A stretch of 33,395 nucleotides of DNA, from positions 1-33,395 of the forward strand of contig VGYC01000069.1 of the NCBI GenBank assembly GCA_016873095.1, given 5' to 3'. Shown here one piece after another: positions 290 through 13,198 of the stretch; positions within the stretch are counted from its first letter, which is position 1; each line of letters starts with the position of its first letter. The notes beneath the pieces were generated by a model that was not told where the DNA came from, ran no database searches, and was given only the letters and a program-made list of their open reading frames with translations. The position numbers and the translations under genes are program-made. The DNA comes from Planctomycetota bacterium. Its GTDB lineage: Bacteria; Planctomycetota; Planctomycetia; Gemmatales; Gemmataceae.

Positions 290-2638
290 TCATAATTCGC
301 CGAAGATGCGCGAGAACTCGAATGGCTGCTGCAGGATGCTGCTGGACATCAGATCAACGTGGTTCAGCGTGCCGCTCGGGTTCTGCTTGTCCCGGTTCAG
401 GGACCACATCGAGATGCGGCCCAGGCCCATCTGCTCGGCGAAGGCGACCAGCTCGCGTGCTTCCTGCTGATCGAATACTTCCGTGGTCACATCGTTGAGG
501 CCGATCATGGGCGTGACGCCGATCATCTGCCAGAGCTGGGCGTCGGACTTCGCGGCGTTGTAAAGACCCTTGAGCTGGTTGAAGGTGCTGGTGGCGGCCT
601 GGATGGCGTAGTCGCCCATCTTGCCCTGTGGGTTGGGCGCGGCCGAGTCGCCGTAATCCATTGCCATGATGTTGACACCGGCGAGGCTGACGCCATGATG
701 CAGCGCCGATTGCACGACGTAGAGGCCGTCGGCCGTCAGGCCGGTGGGCAGCACGGGCAACGTCAGCCAGATGCTGAGCGGCCGACCGGCCGCGGCGGCG
801 TCGCGCTGCAGCGCGGCCAGAGCCTGCGAGCGGCGATCCACCGACACGCGGTCCGCCTGCGCCGCCCCCTCGATGTCGAAGTCTAGCTGCGTGGCCTGGT
901 AGGTGTCGATGACTTTTTGATAGGCAGTCTTGAGGGCGTTGACATCGGTGATGGCCTCGGCCAGCTCGCGGCCGTTGGCGCCGCCGAAGGAGATCATGAC
1001 GTCACCGCCGACAGCCCGCACGCCGGCGATGTGGTTCTTGATGGCGGTATCCCAGTCGCCGCCGCCGTTGACGCGGTATTCCTGGTAGCCGCCCCAGGCC
1101 GGCTGATTGCCCGCATCGGCGACGATGAATGCCAGCGTGAAGTACTTGATGCCCTGGTCGCGGGCGGCAGCGCTCAGGTCATACATCGGCCACAGGGCCA
1201 TATCGACGTACGGAGCATAGTACTGTGCCGGCCAGGTCGAGGCTGCCGGATCGAGCACGGTCACGGTCACGGTCGCCGTGGCGGTGCCGCCCTTGCCGTC
1301 GGCAATCGTGTATGTGAACGTGTCGCTCCCGGTGAAGCCGGCGCGCGGCGTGTAGGTGATCGTGCCATCAGAGTTGCCGACGACGGCGCCGTGCTGCCCC
1401 TGTGTGACCGCGGTCACGCTGAGCGGATTCTGGTCCGGGTCGGAGTCATTGGCGAGGACGCTGATGCGCGTCGCCTGACCCAGGTAGGCGACCGCGGAAT
1501 CGTTGACCGCCGTCGGCGGCCGGTTGGTCGTCGTGCCGCCGCCGCCGGACGCCCCGTTGATGGCGAAGTTGCTCGGCGGTGCTGTCGGGCTGCCGGGGCT
1601 GGCAACGAAGCCGAACGTCGCCGTCGCGTTGGCCGCGAGCGTGCCGTTCCAGCTTGCGTTCTTGACCACGTAGCGGGTGCCGACGTGGCTGACGATGCTG
1701 GCGTTCCAGATGGAGGAAATGGTCCCGGCAAAGTCGAAGGCCAGCGTCCAGCCGTTGAGCGCTGTCGTGCCGGTATTGCGAAGCGTGATCTCGCCGGTGA
1801 AGCCGCTATTCCACGAGTCGAGCACGCGGAACTGAACGCTGCCGGTAGACGGCGCGGCGTCGTCGTTGCGGATCGTGCCGATGGCCTGGGCCCGGCTCAG
1901 CGAGGCCCCCACGGGATTGACCAGGTTGACGGCGAACGTCTCGTCCGCCTCGAACAGCGTGTCGCCCAGCACCTGGACGTTGATCGTCTTTTGCGTCTCT
2001 CCCGGGTTGAAGGTGAGCGACCCGGAAAGCGCGGTGAAATCGCTGCCGGCCATGGCCGTGCCGCTGGCGGTGGAGAACGACACGGTCACCGCGCTGGTGG
2101 CCGGTCCGGAGAGCGTGACGCTGAAGGCGAGATTCTTGCTGCCGCTGTTGCCGTCGGTGACTTCGGCGTCGGCGATGGACAGGGCGACCAGCACCGGCGG
2201 CGGCGTGGTCCCGCCAAGCGCGGCGCCATTGAGAACGTAGTTGCTCGGCGCCGGCGGCGACTTGCCGGGACTGGCGACAAAGCCGAACGATACCGCACCA
2301 TTGGCAGCCAGCGTGCTGTTCCAGCCGGCGCTTTCGATCACGTAGTGATCACCGACATGGCTGACGATGCGAGCGTCCCAGATGGAACTGATCGACGCGG
2401 CATAGTCGAACTCGAGCCGCCAGTTGCTGACGGCGGACGTTTGCTGGTTCTTGAGCTGGACCTGCGCCTGGAAGCCGGAACCCCAGTCCTGCGTGACGGC
2501 ATAGCTTGCGACCACGCCGGCGGGGACCACCCTGGATTCGAGGTTTTCAATCTCCAGTCGGGTCCTGGGGGTGAGCTTGCACTGGGGCCGGGACATTTTC
2601 TCGAGCATGCGCTTGAGCCAGGATTTGCGGTTGACCAC
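290..2638 (-). CDS. Secreted GH18 glycosidase with two CBM2 modules, Calx-beta and cadherin-like domains
   Basis: Predicted 782-residue extracellular chitinase-like enzyme. The N-terminus has LEIENLESRVVPAG (about residues 27-41), a string common at the start of planctomycete surface proteins. Domains in order: CBM2-type carbohydrate binding (about 43-138), Calx-beta (149-261), second CBM2 (267-364), a cadherin-like/Big_9 type domain starting NRPPTAVNDS (373-462) and a GH18 barrel (469-782). The barrel has SFGG at about 550 and the catalytic signature LDFDIEG, with Asp586, Asp588 and the acid Glu590; the first Asp of DxxDxDxE is Thr. The start chosen is GTG at 2638 because GAGGAGG lies 7 bases upstream (2646-2652); an upstream ATG at 2920 would add 94 residues of atypical sequence. 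It is divergent from the DUF1559 gene. Chitin or a related polysaccharide is inferred as substrate; an endo-beta-N-acetylglucosaminidase is the main alternative. Confidence 0.88.
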   Translation of the reverse strand: MVNRKSWLKRMLEKMSRPQCKLTPRTRLEIENLESRVVPAGVVASYAVTQDWGSGFQAQVQLKNQQTSAVSNWRLEFDYAASISSIWDARIVSHVGDHYVIESAGWNSTLAANGAVSFGFVASPGKSPPAPSNYVLNGAALGGTTPPPVLVALSIADAEVTDGNSGSKNLAFSVTLSGPATSAVTVSFSTASGTAMAGSDFTALSGSLTFNPGETQKTINVQVLGDTLFEADETFAVNLVNPVGASLSRAQAIGTIRNDDAAPSTGSVQFRVLDSWNSGFTGEITLRNTGTTALNGWTLAFDFAGTISSIWNASIVSHVGTRYVVKNASWNGTLAANATATFGFVASPGSPTAPPSNFAINGASGGGGTTTNRPPTAVNDSAVAYLGQATRISVLANDSDPDQNPLSVTAVTQGQHGAVVGNSDGTITYTPRAGFTGSDTFTYTIADGKGGTATATVTVTVLDPAASTWPAQYYAPYVDMALWPMYDLSAAARDQGIKYFTLAFIVADAGNQPAWGGYQEYRVNGGGDWDTAIKNHIAGVRAVGGDVMISFGGANGRELAEAITDVNALKTAYQKVIDTYQATQLDFDIEGAAQADRVSVDRRSQALAALQRDAAAAGRPLSIWLTLPVLPTGLTADGLYVVQSALHHGVSLAGVNIMAMDYGDSAAPNPQGKMGDYAIQAATSTFNQLKGLYNAAKSDAQLWQMIGVTPMIGLNDVTTEVFDQQEARELVAFAEQMGLGRISMWSLNRDKQNPSGTLNHVDLMSSSILQQPFEFSRIFGEL

Positions 2639-2904
2639 GGCTTGGCCTCCTCTGTGTGGAATTCGACCGATCGCTCGCCTGGCGGCGAGTCGGCAGGGCA
2701 CATGCCCATGCGCACAGGTTTGGGGAGTAGCCAGGTTCTGAGGCTGGCAACCCGAAAGGTCAGGTTTTCTTACGGACCGAAACAAGACGAAGTTCGCCGG
2801 GGGATCAGCGACTCCTTCCCTCGGAAGATCCAGCGACAGATTCCTGATCGCGGGGACAGGAAAATGTCTCGTCGTGAGAAAGTAGTGTCCCCTGAGGTTT
2901 TTCC

Positions 2905-2933
2905 TTGACAACTCCTTCACAGTTTCTTAATTT
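2905..2933 (+). promoter_or_regulatory. Possible sigma-70-type promoter for the DUF1559 gene
   Basis: A perfect TTGACA (2905-2910) is followed after 17 bases by TAATTT (2928-2933), a weak -10, in a locally AT-rich stretch. Transcription would start near 2940 and leave a leader of roughly 65 bases before the GTG at 3005. The rest of the 366-base divergent intergenic region (2639-3004) shows no gene. Confidence 0.4.
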
Positions 2934-3004
2934 TCACTTGTCATTTTCACCCGATCCGAAAGCACAGTCCCCAAGTTAGGCCGGTCATTCTGAGGGAGGC
3001 TCTC

Positions 3005-3853
3005 GTGACAGTCCCATTGCGCCGCCGAGGCTTCTCGCTGATCGAATTGCTGGTGGTGATCGCCATCATCGCCATATTGATTGCCTTGCTTGTCCCGGCC
3101 GTGCAGGCGGTCCGGGAGGCCAGCGCCAAGACAGCGTGCATGAACAATGTCAAGCAGCTGGCGCTGGCGCTACACAACTTCAGCAACGCCAAGGGCTATT
3201 TGCCCTTGGCGGCTGGGTTTCAGGGACAGTCGTCCTGGACCGGTCAGAAATCATCGCTGTTTTTCCAGACACTGCCGTTTCTCGAACTGGATCCGCTGTA
3301 CAAGCAGCTACCGCCCGACGGCTGGGGAGACATGTTCTTCGGCAAGCCGGGGCCGGCCATCTTCCATTGCCCGAGCGATTTCACCATCACCCCGGGCGCG
3401 ACACAGGGACTTTGCAGTTACGCGTCCAATGCGCAAGTGTTCGGGGACTTGAGCAAGGGCAATCCGTTCGCCCGATTGCCGCAAACGTTCAAGGATGGCA
3501 CCTCCAACGTCGTCATCTTTGCCGAGCGCTACGGCATGTGCCAGGGCTATCCGATGTACTGGTCCTCTGGCCATGAAGCCATCTGGCTCGGCCCGCCGAT
3601 GTTCGCCTACAACTTGCGTTACGATTGGAAGATCGAGCCCATCAACCGGCTGGAGCAACTTTTCCAGATCAACCCGACCGAGGTGCAGTGCGACCCCTAC
3701 GGCACGCAGACCGGCCACAAATCGGCGATGACCGTGGCCATGGGCGATGGCAGTGTTCGTGGGGTGTCCAGCCTGGTCTCGAAAACGACGTGGATCAACG
3801 TTCAGCTGCCCGCTGACGGCAACGTGCTGGATTCTGACTGGACATCGAACTGA
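3005..3853 (+). CDS. DUF1559 domain protein with type II pseudopilin N-terminus
   Basis: The 282-residue protein begins with a short basic leader, then [21 protein letters not shown], the classic prepilin-peptidase cleavage and methylation motif with its hydrophobic helix (about 9-31). This is followed by [27 protein letters not shown], the typical entry to DUF1559, and the C-terminus near DGNVLDSDW also fits the family. DUF1559 proteins are hugely expanded in planctomycetes and are thought to be pseudopilin-like surface proteins; their exact role is unknown. The start is GTG with GAGGGAGG (2992-2999) 5 bases upstream. The next gene is a small lipoprotein 17 bases on, a pairing common in this phylum, so the two probably form an operon. 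Confidence 0.92.
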
Positions 3854-3879
3854 CCGACAACTCCGGAGAGATGCCTGAC

Positions 3880-4356
3880 ATGCGCTGGTGTCATCGACTT
3901 CACCGACTTCTCGTTTGCATGAGCGTGCTGCTGGCCGTTCAAGGTTGCGCCGGTTCAGGCGGCCGCGATGACATGGGCGTCGTGGAGGGCAGGGTGCTCT
4001 TTCAGAGCATGCCGCTCCCCGGCGGCACCATTCACTTCTTTCAAGGACAGGAAAAAGTCGGATCATTCATGATCCGCGGCGACGGCACCTACGCGGCCGA
4101 GGTCCCGCTCGGCCCGGTCACGGTCGCTGTCGAGAACGTGTCGGTCAAGTATCAGGACCGCGATGCCATCTTGAAAGTGATGAAGGAGAGCGGTTTCGAC
4201 GTGGACCCCAAGCAACGCAGACCGGAGTCTCCGGCCAATATCGCGGCCAAGATGAGCTATGTCGAGATTCCCGAGCGTTTCCGCCACCACGAGAAGTCCG
4301 GTCTCGAGCATGTCGTCATGCGCGGACGACAGGTGCGCGATTTCGATCTTAAGTGA
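3880..4356 (+). CDS. Small lipoprotein, carboxypeptidase-regulatory-like fold likely
   Basis: About 158 residues. The N-terminal basic and hydrophobic stretch ends in LLAVQGC, a lipobox with the lipidated Cys at about residue 23. The body (VEGRVLFQSMPLPGGTIHFF, GDGTYAAEVPLGPVTVAVEN) has the pattern of the transthyretin/carboxypeptidase-regulatory-like beta-sandwich lipoproteins that commonly sit next to DUF1559 genes in planctomycetes. An ATG at 3871 is also possible, but the GGAGAG at 3864-3869 is better spaced for the ATG at 3880. Likely anchored in a membrane; molecular function unknown. Confidence 0.78.
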   Translation: MRWCHRLHRLLVCMSVLLAVQGCAGSGGRDDMGVVEGRVLFQSMPLPGGTIHFFQGQEKVGSFMIRGDGTYAAEVPLGPVTVAVENVSVKYQDRDAILKVMKESGFDVDPKQRRPESPANIAAKMSYVEIPERFRHHEKSGLEHVVMRGRQVRDFDLK

Positions 4357-4413
4357 GATGTCTATCGGAGAACGGCTGCCGATGAAGCCCTTTGCCATGG
4401 CTGTCCGTGAGCG

Positions 4414-5685
4414 ATGCGTCGCGCCCTCGTGGCGGCGGTTCTGCTCATCGTCATCATCTCGGCGGGGGCGTGGCTGGGTTCGGAGGCATACGCCGAGGCC
4501 CAGTTTCGACAGGCGCAGTCGGCTCTGCAGGATGCGGATTTTGCTGCGGCCCGCGGGCATTTGCAGTGCTGTCTCGCGCTTCGGCCGAATCGCTTTCAGT
4601 TTCATTTCGCCGCCGCCCAGCTGCAACGCCGCATGGGCGCCTTCCAGAGTGCACTGCACCATCTGGACCGCTGCCAGCAACTCGCCGGCGCCGGTGTCGA
4701 TGTCAGCTCTCTCGAACGGACCCTGCTCGCCGCTCAGCAAGGCGCCGTGCTCAAGGTGGAACGACCACTGTGGGCCCTTGTCGAGCAAGGCCATCCGGAA
4801 ACCGTCTTGATCCTCGAAGCCCTGGCACGCGGCTACCTCCATGTTTACTCCCTGCCGCTGGCCGAAAAATCATTGAAACTGCTCCTGGAGCAGCGCCCTC
4901 AACATGCCGAAGGCTGGTTCTTGCGGACAGGCATTTGCGAGATGACCGGCCCGGCAGCGGACGCGGTGGCCTTCTACCGGCGCGCACTGGAGTTGCGGCC
5001 CAGCAACGATTCCTATCGCTTGCGACTCGCCAACTTCCTGATTCAACTTCAACGATTCGAGGAAGCGCGGCCGCACCTGGAGGAGCTTTGCCTGCGCCAG
5101 CCCGCCAGCTCCGAGGCCCTGCTGGGTCTGGCGCGCGTCGCGAGCCATGCCGGCGAGCGCGACCGTGGCCGCGAGCTTGTTGAAAAGGTCCTGGCGATCC
5201 AGCCGGCACACGCTCAAGCCCTGGTCGAGAGTGCCAGGCTGGATCTGGACGAAGGCAAGCTGGCGCACGCCCAGGCGGCTCTTGGCCGGGCGCTCGAGGC
5301 CGATCCGTCGGATCGGGCCTGTCATTATCTCCTGTTTCAATGTCTGGAGCGGCTCGGCAACCAGAAGGCTGCCCGTCAGCAGCAAGCGCGCTGGCAGGCC
5401 CTGGAAAGCGACCTCACGCGCCTGGAGAAGATCGTACGCCAGGATATCCCCGAAAATCCGCGCAGTGCCGATCTTGATTACGAGATGGGTTCCATACTGG
5501 CTCGCCATGGCAAGGCCGAACGTGCCCTGTCTTCCTACCGACATGCCCTGAACTGCGATCCCAGCCATAAGCAGACGCACGAGGCGCTCAGCCGCCATCT
5601 CAGCCAAACGGGCATCCTGGAGCAGGCCGGCCTCCATCAAGACCCGGCCGCGCCTCCGGCTGCGATTCGACGCCCTGGGCCATGA
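4414..5685 (+). CDS. TPR-repeat protein with N-terminal membrane anchor
   Basis: 423 residues. A single hydrophobic segment at about 4-22 (ALVAAVLLIVIISAGAWLG) acts as membrane anchor or uncleaved signal. The rest is helical with tetratricopeptide-like units, for example residues around LQDADFAAARGHLQCCLALRPN, AVAFYRRALELRPSNDSYRL, AHAQAALGRALEADPSDRA and ALSSYRHALNCDPSHKQTHEAL, each ending in the TPR-style xLxPxx turn. TPR domains are protein-interaction scaffolds. It follows the DUF1559/lipoprotein pair on the same strand after a 57-base gap, so it may belong to the same transcript and function in the same surface assembly; that link is inference. The last 15 or so residues are proline-rich and look disordered. 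Confidence 0.82.
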   Translation: MRRALVAAVLLIVIISAGAWLGSEAYAEAQFRQAQSALQDADFAAARGHLQCCLALRPNRFQFHFAAAQLQRRMGAFQSALHHLDRCQQLAGAGVDVSSLERTLLAAQQGAVLKVERPLWALVEQGHPETVLILEALARGYLHVYSLPLAEKSLKLLLEQRPQHAEGWFLRTGICEMTGPAADAVAFYRRALELRPSNDSYRLRLANFLIQLQRFEEARPHLEELCLRQPASSEALLGLARVASHAGERDRGRELVEKVLAIQPAHAQALVESARLDLDEGKLAHAQAALGRALEADPSDRACHYLLFQCLERLGNQKAARQQQARWQALESDLTRLEKIVRQDIPENPRSADLDYEMGSILARHGKAERALSSYRHALNCDPSHKQTHEALSRHLSQTGILEQAGLHQDPAAPPAAIRRPGP

Positions 5686-5749
5686 CCCTCCTGGCGAGCC
5701 CGGATGAATTGCATTGCCGAGCCATCGCCAAATGCGGATCGCAGTTTCG

Positions 5750-6652
5750 TCAATTCTTCCCCGTCAGAAAGCCGCGACCGTCAAGCCAGGCCTGGCAGCG
5801 CGCCGGCCAGGTGGAGAAGGGCAGATTCTTCGGCCCCAGGCCCAGGCCGTGGCGGCCCTTCTCATAAACGTGCAGCTCGGCGGGAATGTTGAACTTGCGC
5901 AGCGCCAGGTAAAAGGCCACGCTGTTTTCCGGTGGCACGCCGGTGTCCTCGCTGGTGTGCGCCAGGAAGGCGGGCGGCGTCGTTTTGTTGACCTGCTTGT
6001 CGTTGCACAGGCTATCGACAAGGTCGTCGGCAGCATCCTTGCCGAGCAGGTTGAAACGCGAGCCCATGTGAGCGTGCGGCCCCTTGAAAGTGATCACGGG
6101 ATAGACGAGCACCATGAAGTCGGGTCGACTGCTCTGTTTGTCGATGTCATCGGTGGCGTCGGGGTTGCCGGCGTCGAAATGAGTCCCGGCCGTGGAGGCG
6201 AGATGCCCGCCCGCCGAAAATCCCAGGATGCCGATGCGCTTCGGATCGATGCCCCACCTGGCTGCATGGGCACGCGCGTAGCGGACGGCGCGCTGTGCAT
6301 CTTGCAGCGGCGCTGGATGCCGGTAGCGCGGCGCGATGCGATACTGCAGGATGATGCCGGCCACGCCTAAGGAATTCAGCCAGCGGGCGATCTGGTGCCC
6401 TTCGTGGTCCATCGCCAGAAAACCGTACCCGCCGCCCGGACAGATGATCACCGCGGCGCCGTTCGCCTTGTCCTTTTCCGGCAGATAAACAGTGACCTTC
6501 GGCACATCCACCGGCGTCTGGCCAGCGGAGCCGGGAGCGTCGCCGCTCCAGAGCCGTTGCGGCATGGGGACGGCTGCTTTCTTGTCGCCGCCGAATCCAG
6601 CCATGCAAGGAATCAGAATCGTCCAGAGGCTCAATGCTAGGATGCGAATCAT
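5750..6652 (-). CDS. Exported alpha/beta hydrolase, acetyl-esterase/xylanase-like
   Basis: 300 residues with an N-terminal signal peptide (about 1-20). The alpha/beta-hydrolase fold is shown by the CPGGGY oxyanion region (about 71-76), the nucleophile elbow GFSAGG with Ser146, a probable acid in SEDTGVPPENS and the catalytic His in GRHGLG near the C-terminus. This arrangement is typical of the BD-FAE / acetyl-xylan-esterase-like family that planctomycetes carry in many copies for deacetylating polysaccharides. The substrate cannot be read from the sequence. It converges with the TPR gene and lies on the same strand as the two small exported proteins upstream. Confidence 0.87.
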   Translation of the reverse strand: MIRILALSLWTILIPCMAGFGGDKKAAVPMPQRLWSGDAPGSAGQTPVDVPKVTVYLPEKDKANGAAVIICPGGGYGFLAMDHEGHQIARWLNSLGVAGIILQYRIAPRYRHPAPLQDAQRAVRYARAHAARWGIDPKRIGILGFSAGGHLASTAGTHFDAGNPDATDDIDKQSSRPDFMVLVYPVITFKGPHAHMGSRFNLLGKDAADDLVDSLCNDKQVNKTTPPAFLAHTSEDTGVPPENSVAFYLALRKFNIPAELHVYEKGRHGLGLGPKNLPFSTWPARCQAWLDGRGFLTGKN

Positions 6653-7103: not shown

Positions 7104-7574
7104 TTAGTCCTGGCCAGCACCGCGTGCCCGTGGGCCGGTCGACAAGCGGTCCTCTTCGGCCCGTGAATGGTTCGACGGGCGGCGCTGCGCGGCGGTGTCG
7201 CTTGACGGCGCGAAGCGGCCGGTGGCCGTCATGCCATTTGATCGCTTCACGTAGATCTGATAGGCGCGTGTGTCAAGATCCTCGGCCCAGCGGCGCAATT
7301 GCTCATCGTTGGTCTCGAGGGCGATGTCGTGAAGCTGAGCGCACACCGCACTGCGGCGCAGCCAGTCGGCTTTCTCGCGGGCCAGCCGCGCGGCAGGCGA
7401 TTCCGACAGTTTCGCCGCTTCGGCGGGTTTATCGCGCGCCTGGTCCGCGGCGGGCTTGTCCGCTTTTCTGAATGGGATCAGCCGGGAATACCAGCTGCGC
7501 TTCGGCGGTTCGGCCGATGCCGCCGCCGACAGTGCCATGACAACCGCGCCGCTCAAGAGACACCATCGTCCCAT
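7104..7574 (-). CDS. Small exported protein of unknown function
   Basis: 156 residues from the ATG at 7574, chosen because GGGGGAG stands 7 bases upstream and because the protein then opens directly with a signal peptide (GRWCLLSGAVVMALSAAASAEPP, cleavage expected near residue 21). A longer reading to 7634 adds 20 residues without a better ribosome-binding site. The mature part is charged and helical in the middle (AARLAREKADWLRRSAVCAQLHDIALETNDEQLRRWAEDLD), with a polar Ser/Arg-rich tail likely to be disordered. No family recognised. It is the first gene of a two-gene unit with the lipoprotein downstream. Confidence 0.68.
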   Translation of the reverse strand: MGRWCLLSGAVVMALSAAASAEPPKRSWYSRLIPFRKADKPAADQARDKPAEAAKLSESPAARLAREKADWLRRSAVCAQLHDIALETNDEQLRRWAEDLDTRAYQIYVKRSNGMTATGRFAPSSDTAAQRRPSNHSRAEEDRLSTGPRARGAGQD

Positions 7575-7803
7575 GGGCTTGCTCCCCCGTGCAGGCGCAA
7601 CACCTCGTGCGAGGCATGCCGCCACGTCTCTCACCTTGGACCGAAAAATGAATGGCGAGCGTATGCCAAAAGTCCTCGCGCCTGTCCAGTGCAGTTTCTG
7701 TGTGAAATCAGCTTCAGCTCAGCGGTCCGGATTCGCCTCTCATCTTCGATCTTTCATACAAAAGTGGGTGAAGAGCGATCCCGTCGGCGATTTAGGAACC
7801 GCT
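7575..7803. other. Intergenic, no gene seen
   Basis: The 229 bases between the start of the minus-strand exported protein and the left inverted repeat at 7804 contain no recognisable gene. The segment should hold the promoter of the minus-strand pair, but no convincing -35/-10 pair was identified. Confidence 0.35.
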
Positions 7804-7824
7804 GAATAACAACTTCCCGATTTC
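7804..7824 (+). repeat. Left terminal inverted repeat copy
   Basis: GAATAACAACTTCCCGATTTC matches the reverse complement of 12258-12275 (GAATAACTTCCCGATTTC) at all 18 positions if three bases (AAC) are treated as inserted. The right copy sits directly at the end of a transposase fragment, which suggests that this is an IS terminus. Confidence 0.6.
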
Positions 7825-8068
7825 GAGGTCGGTATGGTAGGCTCAGCTGACGCACACAAACCTTGCATCCCAGTAACGCTCACTCTCGAAAACATTTGTG
7901 CGTAATAGTCAGGCCCGGTGAGGGGAGAGCGGCGGGGGAGAAAAAATGCTAAGACGAAAGAAGCAAGGAAGCGAAGGCAAGCCGCCGGATCGCGAGCGTG
8001 AATGGTCCGCGCGGTGCGAGAAAAATCGATAAGATGCCTGCATGGGGCTTGACGCGAAACCTCATAGA

Positions 8069-8091
8069 CGGCCTGGCGGATCGCCAGGCCG
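8069..8091. repeat. Perfect hairpin upstream of esterase gene
   Basis: CGGCCTGGCG, a 3-base loop (GAT) and CGCCAGGCCG form a perfect 10-base-pair stem, 46 bases before the ATG at 8138. No T-run follows, so it is not a standard terminator; it may be a small palindromic repeat or a leader structure. The surrounding 7825-8137 contains no recognisable gene. Confidence 0.6.
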
Positions 8092-8137
8092 CTACGAGCT
8101 ACTCGACCACTACTCTACCTGAAGGGAGTTTCTGTTT

Positions 8138-9028
8138 ATGACCAAGCTCTCAGCGACGCTGGCGGCAATGCTGTTGACACTTGGAGGCCTGCTCCTTACG
8201 TCCTTCGCCCAGCCGGCAAGCAAAGCTGTTGCTGACCAGCCCAAGGACAAGGGTCCGGATCAGGAAGAGAAAATGGTGGTCAAAGAGGATGTGGTTTACG
8301 GCCGGATCCAGGGAGCGGGCTTGCTCGCAGACATCGCCTATCCCGAGGGTGCCGGACCGTTCCCGGTCATCCTCTCGGTCCACGGCGGGCGCTGGTTCCG
8401 CGAGTCGAAATCGACCCATAGCGCCATCAAGGTCCGCCAGTGGGCCCGCTTTGGCTTCTTCGCCGTGTCCATCGAATACCGGCTGATCGGCTGCACTCCG
8501 GCGCCGGCTTGTTATCAGGATGTTCTCTGCGCCATCCGCTGGGTCCACGCCCATGCGGGCGAATACCCCATCGACCGCCAGCGCGTCTTCTTGATCGGCC
8601 AGTCAGCGGGCGGCCACCTGGTATCGCTGGCCGCGACCCTCGGCGAAGGCCCCTTCAAGCGCACCGGCGGCTGGGAAGATCAACCCCACGATTTCCGAGG
8701 CGTCATCGCCGTGTCCGCACCCTACGATCTCAACAAGCTGGACTGGGGCAATGGCTGGACACCGCTCGGCGAGGAGCCGGTTGCCGCCCGACAGTTGGCG
8801 TCACCGATCCATCACGTCAGCGCGAAAACAAAGCCGATTTTGGTTATTCACTCTGACGACGACCATTCGGTGCCGATCCGGCAGGCCCTGGACATGGTCC
8901 AAGTACTGGAAAAGGCCAAGGTCCGCCATCGCTTTGTTCATCACAAGGACAAAGGCCATGTTTCCATCACGGACGATGTCATCCGCGAGGCCCGGGCCTT
9001 TGTCGAGGAGATCAGCGGAAAACAATAG
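8138..9028 (+). CDS. Exported alpha/beta hydrolase (esterase/lipase-like)
   Basis: 296 residues with a signal peptide (MTKLSATLAAMLLTLGGLLLTSFAQP, cleavage near 25). The fold is shown by VHGGRWF (oxyanion HGG at 82-84), nucleophile GQSAGG with Ser157, acid in HSDDDHSVP and catalytic His in KGHVS. This is the BD-FAE/Abhydrolase_3-type secreted esterase group; substrate unknown. AAGGGAG about 9 bases upstream supports the start. The gene lies inside the island bounded by the inverted repeats, 71 bases before the DUF4440-type gene, with which it may be co-transcribed. It is only distantly similar to the esterase at 5750-6652, so it is not a simple local duplicate. Confidence 0.86.
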   Translation: MTKLSATLAAMLLTLGGLLLTSFAQPASKAVADQPKDKGPDQEEKMVVKEDVVYGRIQGAGLLADIAYPEGAGPFPVILSVHGGRWFRESKSTHSAIKVRQWARFGFFAVSIEYRLIGCTPAPACYQDVLCAIRWVHAHAGEYPIDRQRVFLIGQSAGGHLVSLAATLGEGPFKRTGGWEDQPHDFRGVIAVSAPYDLNKLDWGNGWTPLGEEPVAARQLASPIHHVSAKTKPILVIHSDDDHSVPIRQALDMVQVLEKAKVRHRFVHHKDKGHVSITDDVIREARAFVEEISGKQ

Positions 9029-9099
9029 TTTGATTTCGGTGACAACCTCTTTTCTTGGGGACGCGACAGGATCCCTAACTCTACTCGAGGAGGTCCGAC

Positions 9100-10563
9100 A
9101 TGAACCTGAAGGTGTTGGTGGCCCTGGCAGGCGCCCTCCTGATTGGTGGAAATGCCGCCGGGGACAATGCTACCGTTGAGGAAGTCGAGAATGCGGTCCG
9201 AACCCTCAATGAACTGTTTGTGAAGCGGGACGCAGACGGCATCCGACGGCTCATGACCGCGGAACACCTGGCAATTACACCGTACTACGGTGGTCCTCAG
9301 AACATTACGGAGCAGTTGGAGCACCTGGCGGACCACCGACTAACGGAGTACGCGATGGGGAAGGTCAAGGTTACCCTGCTGGCCAAGGACGTGGCCCTCG
9401 TCAGTTACCCCCTGACCCTGAAAGGGACCTACAAAGGGGAAACGGTTTCCGGAAAGTACTACGTAGGCGCGGTCTGGGTGAGGCGAAACACGAAATGGCT
9501 GGAGGCGTTCTACCAGGAATCGCCGGTGGAGAACGCGCAAAAGGGGGGCCGTTTCCGGCGCGTGCGCTACGGTGAGATCTTCGTGGTCGATGGCAGCTCG
9601 AATCAGCTGGAAGCCAGAGTCTACAACACAACTGGCCTCAACGACTGCCCCGCGGGCAAATGGAAGGCGCTCGATCCGGAGGGAATCAAGAAGGAGCTCA
9701 AAGCTCTCGCCGTCATCCTGAATGGACCGCGTTATTGGATCATGGACAAGGCCGGCCTGCAGGATAAGCCAGGACCGGTGGTTTCATTCGGCGGGCTCGA
9801 GATGCGTCAGATCGCTACCCTGAAAGTGCCTGCGGGCGATCTGCTCGGCGGCAGACCTCGGCGAACGCCTTATTCGGAGCAGGTGGTCATGCGAAATACG
9901 GAGTACACTTATGCCGCCGGAAACAAGGTCTATGAGCTGGTTTCACCGGACGGCACTGCGTACGTTATGCAGTCCTATTCTCACGAGGTGGATGATACCT
10001 TGACGGAAGAGTCCCTATCGAGCCTGGGGAATCGGCTGAAGCTTCCGCGGAATTGGAAGTATCGCCTTCGAAAACTGGATGCCGACTGGGTTGTACGTTC
10101 CACGGAAGGCAAAGCGCATGTGATCCAGGATGAGTTCCAGAATACCTATCAGCGCGTTGATCCAGTGACCCCTGCCCGACAGGATGCCGAGTCCATCAAA
10201 AAACTGCTCCTCAAGGTGGAACGCGACTGGGCGACCGCCCTCGAGAAGAGAGACGGCAAGGCGATCGCGGCGCTGCTTGCGAACGACTTCATTTCCGTCG
10301 AACCCGATGGCAGCCTGCTCAATAAGGAACAATACCTTGAAGCCCGTGTGAAAGACCAGGAACTCGAGTCATCCACATTGGAGCAGATGCAGGTTCGCGT
10401 CTATGGTCCTACGGCAACGGTCACGGGACTCCAGACCAATCAGCGCAAGCGGAAGGGAGAAAAGGTGACCGAGCGGTATCGCTATGTCGATGTGTTCATC
10501 CTACAGGACGGAGCCTGGAAATGTATTTCAACTCAGGTGACGCCACTGCCCGCGAAAAAGTAG
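9100..10563 (+). CDS. Exported three-part protein: DUF4440/SnoaL-like, middle domain, DUF4440/SnoaL-like
   Basis: 487 residues with signal peptide (about 1-20). Residues about 24-145 (VEEVENAVRTLNELFVKRDADGIRRLMTAEHLAI) and 362-485 (AESIKKLLLKVERDWATALEKRDGKAIAALLANDFISVEPDGSLLNKEQYL) are two NTF2-like modules of the DUF4440/SnoaL type. Between them, about 150-355, is a distinct module with VYNTTGLNDCP, NGPRYWIMD, SPDGTAYVMQSYSHEVD and GNRLKLPRNWKYRLRKL, which to memory resembles a stand-alone uncharacterised secreted family. NTF2-like folds bind small ligands or act as enzymes, but no catalytic residues can be assigned. GAGGAGG 6 bases upstream fixes the start. Its base composition looks less GC-rich than that of core neighbours, which agrees with acquisition along with the island. 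Confidence 0.75.
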   Translation: MNLKVLVALAGALLIGGNAAGDNATVEEVENAVRTLNELFVKRDADGIRRLMTAEHLAITPYYGGPQNITEQLEHLADHRLTEYAMGKVKVTLLAKDVALVSYPLTLKGTYKGETVSGKYYVGAVWVRRNTKWLEAFYQESPVENAQKGGRFRRVRYGEIFVVDGSSNQLEARVYNTTGLNDCPAGKWKALDPEGIKKELKALAVILNGPRYWIMDKAGLQDKPGPVVSFGGLEMRQIATLKVPAGDLLGGRPRRTPYSEQVVMRNTEYTYAAGNKVYELVSPDGTAYVMQSYSHEVDDTLTEESLSSLGNRLKLPRNWKYRLRKLDADWVVRSTEGKAHVIQDEFQNTYQRVDPVTPARQDAESIKKLLLKVERDWATALEKRDGKAIAALLANDFISVEPDGSLLNKEQYLEARVKDQELESSTLEQMQVRVYGPTATVTGLQTNQRKRKGEKVTERYRYVDVFILQDGAWKCISTQVTPLPAKK

Positions 10564-10886
10564 TGCCTGCCACCCCAGCACGAATCGAAGGGAACAGGCC
10601 GGCATTCCATCGGCGTGAGCCAAACTACCGGGTGCGGTTGAACGGGCCGGCATGCGGTACAATCGCGGTAGTGTCGCAAACGCCCCGGGCAATGGGGACA
10701 TTCACGGGGGCAAAAAGGGACGCAGCTCATTAATGAATGAGTTTCCGATAGGAGTGTCAGTAGGATGTCACTGACTGAATGGGGGGGGGCCGAACAATCC
10801 GCTCAACTTGACCGGGGCCGCCCTTTCGGTTTTGCGCAGTACAATGTTTTCCGAGGCGGCCCCGGCAGCTTATCCTTATCGTTCGG
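10564..10886. other. Intergenic stretch with G-run and long-loop palindrome
   Basis: No coding region was recognised. It holds a nine-G homopolymer (10781-10789), which is a possible sequencing weak point, and the palindrome at 10812-10865. It ends at the GTGCG that may begin the group II intron-like segment. Confidence 0.4.
10812..10865. repeat. 11-bp perfect inverted repeat with 32-base loop
   Basis: CCGGGGCCGCC (10812-10822) pairs exactly with GGCGGCCCCGG (10855-10865). The loop (10823-10854) is long for a terminator. The palindrome ends 21 bases before the putative intron 5' end at 10887; some group II introns insert just downstream of stem-loops, so it may be part of the insertion target. 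Confidence 0.6.
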
Positions 10887-11420
10887 GTGCGACACGAGGC
10901 TGTCGCTGTTACTGTCATGCTCTATTAAGGAGGGCGTTACTCCCCAAAGTGATATGACCTGCGGTACTGCCCGCAGTATCCTACCGCGACTTGCGTCACC
11001 GGAGGTGCGAAGCTCGCGGCACAACGTAACCTCATCCGTCAGGATGGCAATCTAACCGTGAGGCCAAGTTGCGACTGCCAGCATCCAAGGTGGTCGGGAA
11101 CCAGGATCGTGTGGTAGGGTCAACCCAGGTGAAGCGCTGCTAAACGTCGTCACACAGAACCAGGGCAAGATGCTCTACGCCCTGGGACCAAAAGGTACGT
11201 GGTCAGGTCCAGGGGCTCCGAACTCCTCTGGCGCAGTTGTTGTACCACCGGCGGAGAGGCGCGACCTAACCCACACTGTGACAGCGCCGGAACGTGGTAA
11301 GCCCGTCGTCTTCCCTCGCGAGGGAAGGCTGTCTCGCAAGAGAGGCTATGGGGCGGCGGGTAGAGGAGGAGGGAGCAAGCGAAGGCCGGTCTGTAATGGA
11401 TCGGATAGGCATTGAGCTTC
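10887..11420 (+). ncRNA. Probable 5' fragment of a group II intron (ribozyme domain I onward)
   Basis: The segment opens with GTGCGAC, the group II intron 5' consensus (GTGYG), and contains GGAACGTGGTAAGCCC (11289-11304), ACCGTGAGGC and GGGTCAACCCAGGTGAAG, all of which recall domain I of bacterial group II introns. It is dense in hairpins: CTGCGG/CCGCAG (10959-10976), CCAGGGC/GCCCTGG (11160-11185) and the palindrome TTCCCTCGCGAGGGAA (11311-11326). No long reading frame fits it. No reverse transcriptase and no domain V (AGC...GAAA...) was found downstream, so it would be a 3'-truncated remnant. The 3' limit is approximate. Recognition is from memory, not an alignment. Confidence 0.55.
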
Positions 11421-12259
11421 CCGGCGACATCATCCCACGGCGAAAGCCGGCAGACTTCCCTCTGGTGTTGGTCTACGTGAAACGTGTGGCAAACCGACTT
11501 GAGGAGGGAAAGCAGAAATGTTGGCGGAGTGCGATGCTCTCCCATGGCCAGGGTCTTGAAGGCTTGCCGCCGACCCAGGTCGAACCTGTCCAGGAGTTGC
11601 TGGACGACGGCGCTATCGACCGGCGTGCCCAGAGCGGCCTGTTCTATCGCGACGGCCAACTCTACAGCACGACGACGATGCGTGTCTGGGATCACGATTT
11701 CCCGTCGTTTGCTGAAGGCGTGGTCATCCCACATGGCTTGTATGACCTCAAACGCAATCGCGGCTACGTCAACCTCGGCATCAGCCGCGACACCAGCGAA
11801 TTCGCCTGCGACAGCATCTACCAGTGGTGGACTGCCGAAGGACAAGCCGCCTATGCCCACGCCAAGGCCTTGCTGCTCTTGTGTGACGGCGGCGGCAGCA
11901 ACAGCGCCACGCAGTATCTGTTCAAGCAGGACCTGCAGGCCTTGGCCAACCGGATGGGCCTGGAGATCCGCGTGGCTCATTATCCGCCGTATACCTCCAG
12001 GTACAACCCACTCGAGCATCGGCTGTTTCCGCATCTGAGCCGTGCCTGCCAAGGCGTGATCTTTCGCAACGTGCAACAGGTCCAGCATTACATGGCCAAG
12101 GCTGCCACCAAAGGCGGGCTCTCGGTAGTCGTCAACATCCTGGACAAGATCTACCAAGCCGGGCGAGAGGTCGCCGCTGGCTTCAAACAAACCATGCGTA
12201 TTGTCAAAGACAAACTCCTTCCCCGACTCAACTACCGGGCCCTGCCGGCTCCATGTTGA
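11294..12259 (+). pseudogene. ISAzo13-family transposase, N-terminally truncated
   Basis: The open frame is 321 codons, but only about residue 115 onward resembles a transposase: FYRDGQLY, WDHDFPSF, IPHGLYDLKRNRGYVNLG, DTSEFACDSIYQWW, LLLLCDGGGSN, HYPPYTSRYNPLEHRLF. This is the C-terminal two thirds of the ISAzo13 DDE domain. The second Asp (Asp198 in CDGG) and the Glu (Glu241 in NPLEHR) are present, whereas the DTKKKE motif bearing the first Asp is not recognisable (an Asp stands at 109 in AIDRRAQSG). The usual N-terminal DNA-binding half is missing, and the first 40 or so codons overlap the intron-like stretch. The element is therefore very likely unable to transpose on its own. The stop codon overlaps the right inverted repeat. 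Confidence 0.85.
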
Positions 12260-12275
12260 AATCGGGAAGTTATTC
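12258..12275 (-). repeat. Right terminal inverted repeat copy
   Basis: GAAATCGGGAAGTTATTC is the inverted partner of 7804-7824. It overlaps the stop codon of the transposase remnant and ends 26 bases before the next gene's ATG, so the IS end has become that gene's upstream region. Confidence 0.65.
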
Positions 12276-12301
12276 TTCGCCGCGTCCTTAAGGAACGATC
12301 C

Positions 12302-13198
12302 ATGCGACTGGCCATGCGTTTTTCCGCCATCTTCGTGACATGCGCAGCTTTCCTGATTGCCGTCCGTGCGGACGACGAGGCGAAGGACCTGAAGGCCACG
12401 GTAAGCTGGCTGGTGAAGCATCAGGCAGCCAACGGCGCGTTCTTCGCCGCCGAGCCGAACAAGGAAAAATCGCCTTCGCTGCGTACGACATCTGCCGCCG
12501 TGCGCGCACTTCTCTACCTCGGCGCTGAGGTGCCGAGGAAAGCGGACTGCGCGAAGTTTGTCGTGAGCTGCTTCGACCCTGCCAGCGGCGGCTTTGCCGA
12601 TGTTCCAGGTGGGAAGCCGGACGTGTTTCTTACCTCGGTTGGCATCATGGCTGTCGTTGCCCTGAAGATGCCGGCGGACAAGTACGAGGCCGGCGTCATC
12701 AAGTTCTTGACGGATGAGAGCAAGACGTTCGAGGACATGCGCATTGCCGTCGCGGGGTTGGAGGCGCTGGGCAAGCCGTCGCCCATGGCCAAGGAATGGC
12801 TAACGCGGATTCGCATGATGCAGAATGCCGACGGCACCTTCGGCAAGGACCTGGGCCGGGCGCGCGTCACCGGCGGCGCCGCCGTGGCCATGCTGCGACT
12901 CGGTGGCAAGCTGCACAACTCGGACGCGATTGTAAACGCGCTCAAGGACGGCCAGCGCCTCAACGGCGGCTACGGCAAGGAGGATTCCGAACTGGCCTCC
13001 GACATGGACAGCACCTATCGCGTGATGCGTGCGTTCGTCATGCTCAAGCACAGGCCGCCCGATGTGGAAGGCGTGGCGTCTTTCGTTCTGAAGTGCCGCA
13101 ACGCCGACGGCGGCTACTGTCTAAAACCGGGTGAGGCGTCGAGCATCCCTGCGACCTACTACGCGGCGATCATCCGGCACTGGCTCAAGCACAAGTAG
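12302..13198 (+). CDS. Exported prenyltransferase/squalene-oxidase repeat protein
   Basis: 298 residues with a signal peptide (MRLAMRFSAIFVTCAAFLIAVRA). The rest is built of alpha/alpha-toroid repeats with the usual markers: LVKHQAANGAFFA, CFDPASGGFADVPGG, MMQNADGTFGKD, GQRLNGGYGKE, CRNADGGYCLKPGEASSIPATYYA. This fold is shared by protein prenyltransferase beta subunits and triterpene cyclases, but exported bacterial versions lack an assigned reaction; the family alone does not prove terpenoid chemistry. AAGGAA about 7 bases upstream supports the start. The IS right end stands 26 bases upstream, so the native promoter is either within the IS or lost. The gap to the next gene is 70 bases, so they may be co-transcribed. 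Confidence 0.85.
   Translation: MRLAMRFSAIFVTCAAFLIAVRADDEAKDLKATVSWLVKHQAANGAFFAAEPNKEKSPSLRTTSAAVRALLYLGAEVPRKADCAKFVVSCFDPASGGFADVPGGKPDVFLTSVGIMAVVALKMPADKYEAGVIKFLTDESKTFEDMRIAVAGLEALGKPSPMAKEWLTRIRMMQNADGTFGKDLGRARVTGGAAVAMLRLGGKLHNSDAIVNALKDGQRLNGGYGKEDSELASDMDSTYRVMRAFVMLKHRPPDVEGVASFVLKCRNADGGYCLKPGEASSIPATYYAAIIRHWLKHK

Follow-up and report, generated by a model that had tools for sequence, protein, structure and literature searches.

We analysed a 33,395-bp stretch of DNA from a planctomycete of the family Gemmataceae (assembly GCA_016873095.1, contig VGYC01000069.1, positions 1 to 33,395; hereafter the window), in which an initial annotation had described inverted repeats of insertion sequence (IS) type around a cargo island. 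Comparison with related elements indicated that the segment at 7795–12287 is, in its anatomy, a transposase-defective, non-autonomous derivative of an ISAzo13-type IS with a foreign middle, a reading to which we assign a probability of about 0.85. The IS parts retained are about 60–120 bp of the left end and about 650 bp comprising a C-terminal piece of the transposase and the right end, and about 3.6 kb of foreign DNA takes the place of the IS middle. The foreign chunk would have been assembled in an integron array, ISAzo13 ends would have come to bracket it by insertions and deletions, and an ISAzo13 transposase supplied in trans would have moved the bracketed unit between two neighbouring genes, with duplication of TTA. 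We put the chances of such an arrival as one unit at about even. In favour of this history, the chunk has truncated, attC-linked elements at either edge, as a piece taken out of an array would, and the outer flanks resemble those of a single insertion. The coordinates of all features are given in Table 1.

The two repeats were found where they had been reported, with GAATAACAACTTCCCGATTTC at 7804–7824 and its inverted counterpart, GAAATCGGGAAGTTATTC, at 12258–12275. The 3-base gap placed in their alignment proved unnecessary, as an ungapped inverted repeat is longer, extending over 34 nt with 79% complementarity (arms 7791–7824 and 12258–12291). The span of 7804–12275 given for the whole element had to be revised, because these positions delimit only the inner part of the repeats and the tips lie further out; set against relatives' elements, the element has bounds of 7795–12287, a length of 4493 bp and imperfect 30-nt ends that match each other at 24 of 30 positions. 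The exact core of the repeat, AACTTCCCGATTTC, occurs twice in the whole 8.36-Mb assembly (8,355,748 bp), both times in the window and in inverted orientation, and the calculated number of exact 14-mers expected there by chance is about 0.06. Near matches to the core are frequent in the genome, and the exact pair alone is striking: at up to two mismatches there were 53 matches in the assembly versus 21 for the reversed control, and 2 of 100 shuffles of the window gave at least two core matches at the same tolerance. The left repeat, for which a comparison with ISAzo13 termini had been suggested, matches the left end of an ISAzo13-type element in genome G094 (locus L084), the similarity of 83% over 48 nt (window 7804–7850) continuing past the repeat.

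Table 1. Features of the putative ISAzo13 derivative and its surroundings in the window.
Feature	Position	Strand	Remarks
Left neighbour gene	7104..7634	-	Adjoins the downstream gene in L073 and L075, element absent
Box TATGCCAAAA...GTCCAG	7662..7689	+	Closely precedes the downstream gene in relatives L073 and L075 (read by eye)
Left copy of 3-bp flanking repeat TTA (putative target duplication)	7792..7794	.	Equals 12288-12290
Left terminal inverted repeat, tip GGAAC	7795..7824	+	24/30 to right end; layout as in relatives' ISAzo13-type elements
ISAzo13-type left end	7795..7850	+	Similar to G094 (L084) over 7804-7850
Right-end fragment of IS110-type element	7917..8072	+	83% to L235 (same place as L072) and L236, 80% to G095
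Esterase gene, BD-FAE / alpha-beta hydrolase (cargo)	8138..9028	+	PF20434, 131 bits
Gene for DUF4440-containing protein (cargo)	9100..10563	+	PF14534, 116 bits, two stretches
Integron attC site	10790..10886	+	Model match 10791-10885; 70.7 bits, E 9.5e-18
5' part of group II intron	10887..11527	+	Starts GTGCGAC at attC end; RF02012, 87 bits
Junction region	11528..11635	+	Intron similarity ends at 11527; Pfam match begins at 11636
C-terminal ISAzo13 transposase fragment	11636..12259	+	Pfam match, PF07592 positions 103-307
Right terminal inverted repeat	12258..12287	-	Ungapped 34-nt comparison; 24/30 to left end
Right copy of 3-bp flanking repeat TTA	12288..12290	.	Equals 7792-7794
Right neighbour gene	12302..13198	+	PF00432; 14-bp gap from element

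For comparison, loci with ISAzo13-type transposases were collected from 35 of 95 genomes of the same family (E ≤ 0.001) and from 24 of 397 genomes of the same class (E ≤ 1e-60), the genome under study being included in both counts, and part of the loci were read. The tips of the relatives' elements are mostly GGA(A/T)C, followed by an inner motif like AATAACTTCCCGA, and their 3-bp flanking repeats are mostly TTA or TAA. Judged by its tips and inner motif, the window segment carries both terminal repeats of the family. Matching 3-mers flanked 14 of the 19 relatives' elements counted (misses: L193, L063, L090, L097 and L101), whereas 20,000 shuffles gave a mean of 5.7 and a maximum of 13. Two elements left out of this count were L065, which lies at a contig end and has differing flanks, and L066, which has matching flanks (15 of 21 with both included); L084, L089, L094, L102 and L188, with unclear tips or ends, and loci without a clear repeat pair were also left out. 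When the relatives' elements were used to place both termini, as the initial annotation had proposed, the ends fell at 7795 and 12287 with TTA on both sides. A 3-bp flanking repeat of the kind seen in the ISAzo13 family is present; it would also be the target duplication of a mobile insertion cassette, a sign that is weak taken alone. The element lengths are quite different, as 19 of 20 reference elements measured 1310–1382 bp and one 1926 bp (L097, G026:C65; about 0.6 kb above the other references) versus 4493 bp here.

The right repeat copy had been placed at the end of an ISAzo13-like transposase fragment, and this was confirmed by a PF07592 match of 225 bits, covering profile positions 103–307 of 308, at 11636–12259. 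In an alignment with the longer proteins of nine relatives and with a transposase piece from G094, clear similarity began after the DTKKKELLG stretch of the relatives' proteins. The DTKKKE motif is presumably the site of the first catalytic Asp in ISAzo13 transposases. The window reads AIDRRAQSG at this position, so that the motif is unrecognisable, with a single Asp possibly left. The segment thus differs from a standard ISAzo13 element of about 1.3 kb with a full transposase: the N-terminal part is gone and the whole measures 4493 bp. The G094 piece was the closest transposase in the same-family search (75% over 212 amino acids). The G094 transposase (L084, G094:C20, reverse complement 740–1670) has likewise lost its N-terminal part at almost the same codons, and a common N-truncated ancestor of the two is possible.

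On its left side, the foreign chunk begins in the right-end fragment of an IS110-type element. This fragment matched sequences in G017 and G097 (83%) and in G095 (80%), with IS110 transposase sequence upstream in all three and a PF02371 match in L072. The similarity to G017 and G097 stops at CTCATAGACGGC, while that to G095 continues weakly. The left end of the IS110-type element lies directly after the GTTCG end of an attC site in both places where it could be read (L072, 4295 onward; L243, 278 onward); in L244 this end lies off the contig. In L072 and L243, the IS110-type element looks attC-targeting.

On its right side, the chunk passes through an attC site into a group II intron. The attC model was built from 24 other copies picked by their GTTCG ending, with the window's copy excluded, and gave 21 sites in the assembly, including the window's copy and six of the model-building copies. 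An integron integrase (IntI) over the curated cut-off occurs on two contigs, C83 with five of these sites and C132 with two; no IntI over this cut-off was found on C69, and the window does not hold a complete integron. The attC sites at L148 (G000:C83) and L150 (G000:C132) have the ending GTTCG where the textbook form is GTTRRRY, and a run of nine G at 10781–10789 immediately precedes the window's site. Ten RF02012 copies were examined together with their upstream sequence, and six of them start with GTGCGAC. Five of these six follow an attC site directly and in cassette orientation (the window at 10887, L154 at 8332 on the minus strand, L227 at 4037, L230 at 3956 and L231 at 3356), the exception being L155 (5059, minus strand). 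The four remaining copies (L227 at 5169, L228, L229 and L232) do not follow an attC recognised by the model.

The window's intron copy ceases to match its homologues at 11527, and no domain V (RF00029) match was found in the window. The homologues L154, L155 and L156 have RF00029 matches, those of L154 and L155 lying within 0.9 kb of the 5' end. With one query, no reverse transcriptase match was obtained in L154 or L155; these introns may lack an open reading frame and need a reverse transcriptase in trans. For the window, an intron truncated where a reverse transcriptase gene begins was considered and dropped, because L154 and L155 reach domain V within that short distance and gave no reverse transcriptase match with the one query. 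A group IIC-attC intron was also ruled out: the window's intron has the same orientation as cassette genes and directly follows the attC end GTTCGG, whereas group IIC-attC introns run against the cassettes and insert mostly at TTGT/T. In the literature seen, the closest precedent for a group II intron after attC in the same orientation is UHB.I2, a IIB intron that is described in part of PMC7923331 as lying directly after attC in cassette orientation and as protein-encoding; the homologues L154 and L155 differ from it in having no reverse transcriptase match (one query).

Between the repeats, the esterase, the DUF4440-type protein and the intron-like RNA of the initial annotation were all recovered by profile matches. 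The two genes are flanked by the attC-linked IS110 end and by the attC site. The attC site and the intron are integron-linked; for the two genes, a cassette origin may or may not hold.

The insertion site was compared with 11 loci in which the downstream gene has a homologue. In two of them (L073 from G003 and L075 from G002), the homologue of the left neighbour adjoins in the same divergent arrangement with no cargo between; of the other nine, three are short and the rest are possibly paralogues. In L073 and L075 the downstream gene is closely preceded by the box ATATGCCAAAATAACC...TGTCCAG, and by eye the counterpart of this box in the window (7662–7689) is on the far side of the element, so the insertion parts the downstream gene from this box. 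The DUF4440 gene was absent from all 11 loci, as was any close homologue of the cargo esterase; L078 contains a homologue (42%) of another esterase of the window (5750–6652), with a weak match of 27% to the cargo esterase. The presence of the two cargo genes at the same place in relatives without repeats, which would have spoken against the initial annotation, was thus not seen in these loci.

Several observations weigh against the arrival of the segment as one unit, and others against its genes having been cassettes. No second site of the unit was found, and it is present as a single copy in the assembly. There was no other PF07592 match in the assembly either, which is 95.5% complete in 548 contigs, a state in which the loss of a helper transposase copy is possible. 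The passenger-carrying ISAzo13 derivative of the initial annotation fitted best as anatomy, whereas its mobility in trans was not borne out by the single copy and the lack of another PF07592 match. The empty-site comparison had a divided result: the neighbours are adjacent without cargo in the two loci described above, but no exact empty site, which would read CGGCGATTTAAGGAACGATCC, was found, the relatives' intergenic DNA being by eye too divergent for an exact joint. Same-genus genomes did not appear among the matches listed, and no genus-only search was made. The TTA pair by itself is weak support, because flanks of the relatives paired at random agree in about 30% of cases. The left and right tips match at 6 of 10 positions, the lowest value among 21 elements, which could reflect different source copies or age and hints at two source copies. 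As to the genes, the DUF4440 stop lies 227 bp before the attC site, and 8073–10886 read as one cassette would measure 2.8 kb, which is long for a single cassette. According to what a passage of PMC8352920 implies, the largest annotated cassette has a length of about 2 kb. By the model, no attC site was present in the fetched loci of the homologues L071 (esterase, 79% at the amino acid level), L152, L079 and L080, nor in that of L226 (DUF4440).

The most serious competitor is capture in situ, in which a normal 1.3-kb ISAzo13 element inserted between the two neighbouring genes, giving rise to the TTA repeat, before illegitimate recombination exchanged its interior for the integron-derived chunk, the unit itself never having moved. 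Such a history accounts equally well for the TTA flanks and for the relatives' adjacent neighbours and requires no second IS copy, in keeping with the single copy in the genome. It requires, however, an illegitimate insertion with two ends, the ends of the chunk being themselves truncated elements, and the agreement between the tips is poor for one IS copy. A simple insertion by IntI at a secondary site does not suffice and was ruled out as the sole cause, because the chunk passes attC into the intron and starts in the IS110 end. We regard capture in situ as a possible but rather doubtful history. A composite transposon of two full IS copies was ruled out, as there are only one left and one right end.

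The initial annotation had also raised the debris of two insertions, that is, two independent ISAzo13 insertions of which one end each survives, with old local or separately acquired DNA between them. The poor match between the tips and the broken elements at both inner boundaries agree with this. On the other hand, old local DNA is unlikely given that two relatives have the neighbours side by side and no intervening gene, the matching TTA flanks would be a coincidence (about 0.3), and the attC chunk would have to land between two separate insertions; with the flanks and the neighbours against it, two-insertion debris is improbable. The idea that the repeat arose by chance, with a left copy unrelated to any IS and ordinary local genes inside, could appeal to the shortness of the perfect match and to the frequency of its core at two mismatches. 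It was ruled out, with a negligible probability, by the exact 14-mer found only as this pair, by the match to the G094 left end beyond the repeat and by the synteny, which points to an insertion.

Returning to arrival as one unit, the segment resembles mobile insertion cassettes such as MIC231 of Bacillus cereus and mic-qnrD of Proteeae, which, according to passages of PMC3913671, share IS-type inverted repeats around passenger genes, a target duplication and the lack of a complete transposase. According to the same passages, it is the transposase of IS231A that mobilises MIC231A1 in trans. The likeness is anatomical, and the window differs in having ISAzo13-type ends, 3-bp flanks, a transposase remnant, and attC with a partial group II intron in the cargo. 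In the integron mobilization unit and TIME-COMP, parts of PMC13367494 report that non-autonomous ends move the bracketed DNA with transposase in trans; there the ends are two copies of Tn3-derived miniature elements, whereas here there are one ISAzo13 left end, one right end and one attC site, and the ends are of ISAzo13 type and not Tn3-derived miniature elements. With the ordinary ISAzo13-type IS of same-class relatives, the segment shares PF07592, the tips, the inner motif and the 3-bp flanks, and it departs from them in its length and broken transposase. We tentatively regard it, at somewhat less than even odds, as a mobile insertion cassette with ISAzo13-type ends and, as its load, part of an integron array of chromosomal type, without resistance genes and outside the Tn3/Tn402 context; our estimate was raised slightly because the IS110 type adjoins attC in both readable places.

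If the unit is mobile, ordinary IS ends would be carriers of integron-array DNA in environmental bacteria, a route that the literature seen reports for resistance elements, and ISAzo13 would be a carrier of passenger genes. IS ends would then supply the mobility otherwise absent from a chromosomal-type integron cassette, as a natural integron-mobilising unit in an environmental planctomycete relative. No title in the literature searched for ISAzo13 (titles and abstract openings) names passenger genes. In a wider contig collection, the left-end pattern gave 19 stretches and a protein scan gave no match; a plasmid search returned 291 records with partial matches, the best coverage among the matches listed being 11% of the query.

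Two loci of relatives showed further features. The G094 element (L084, G094:C20) contains a 186-nt stretch with palindromic arms. In L072 (G017:C501), an integron occupies 683–6068, with the array lying after the integrase gene and the integrase reading in the same direction as its cassettes.

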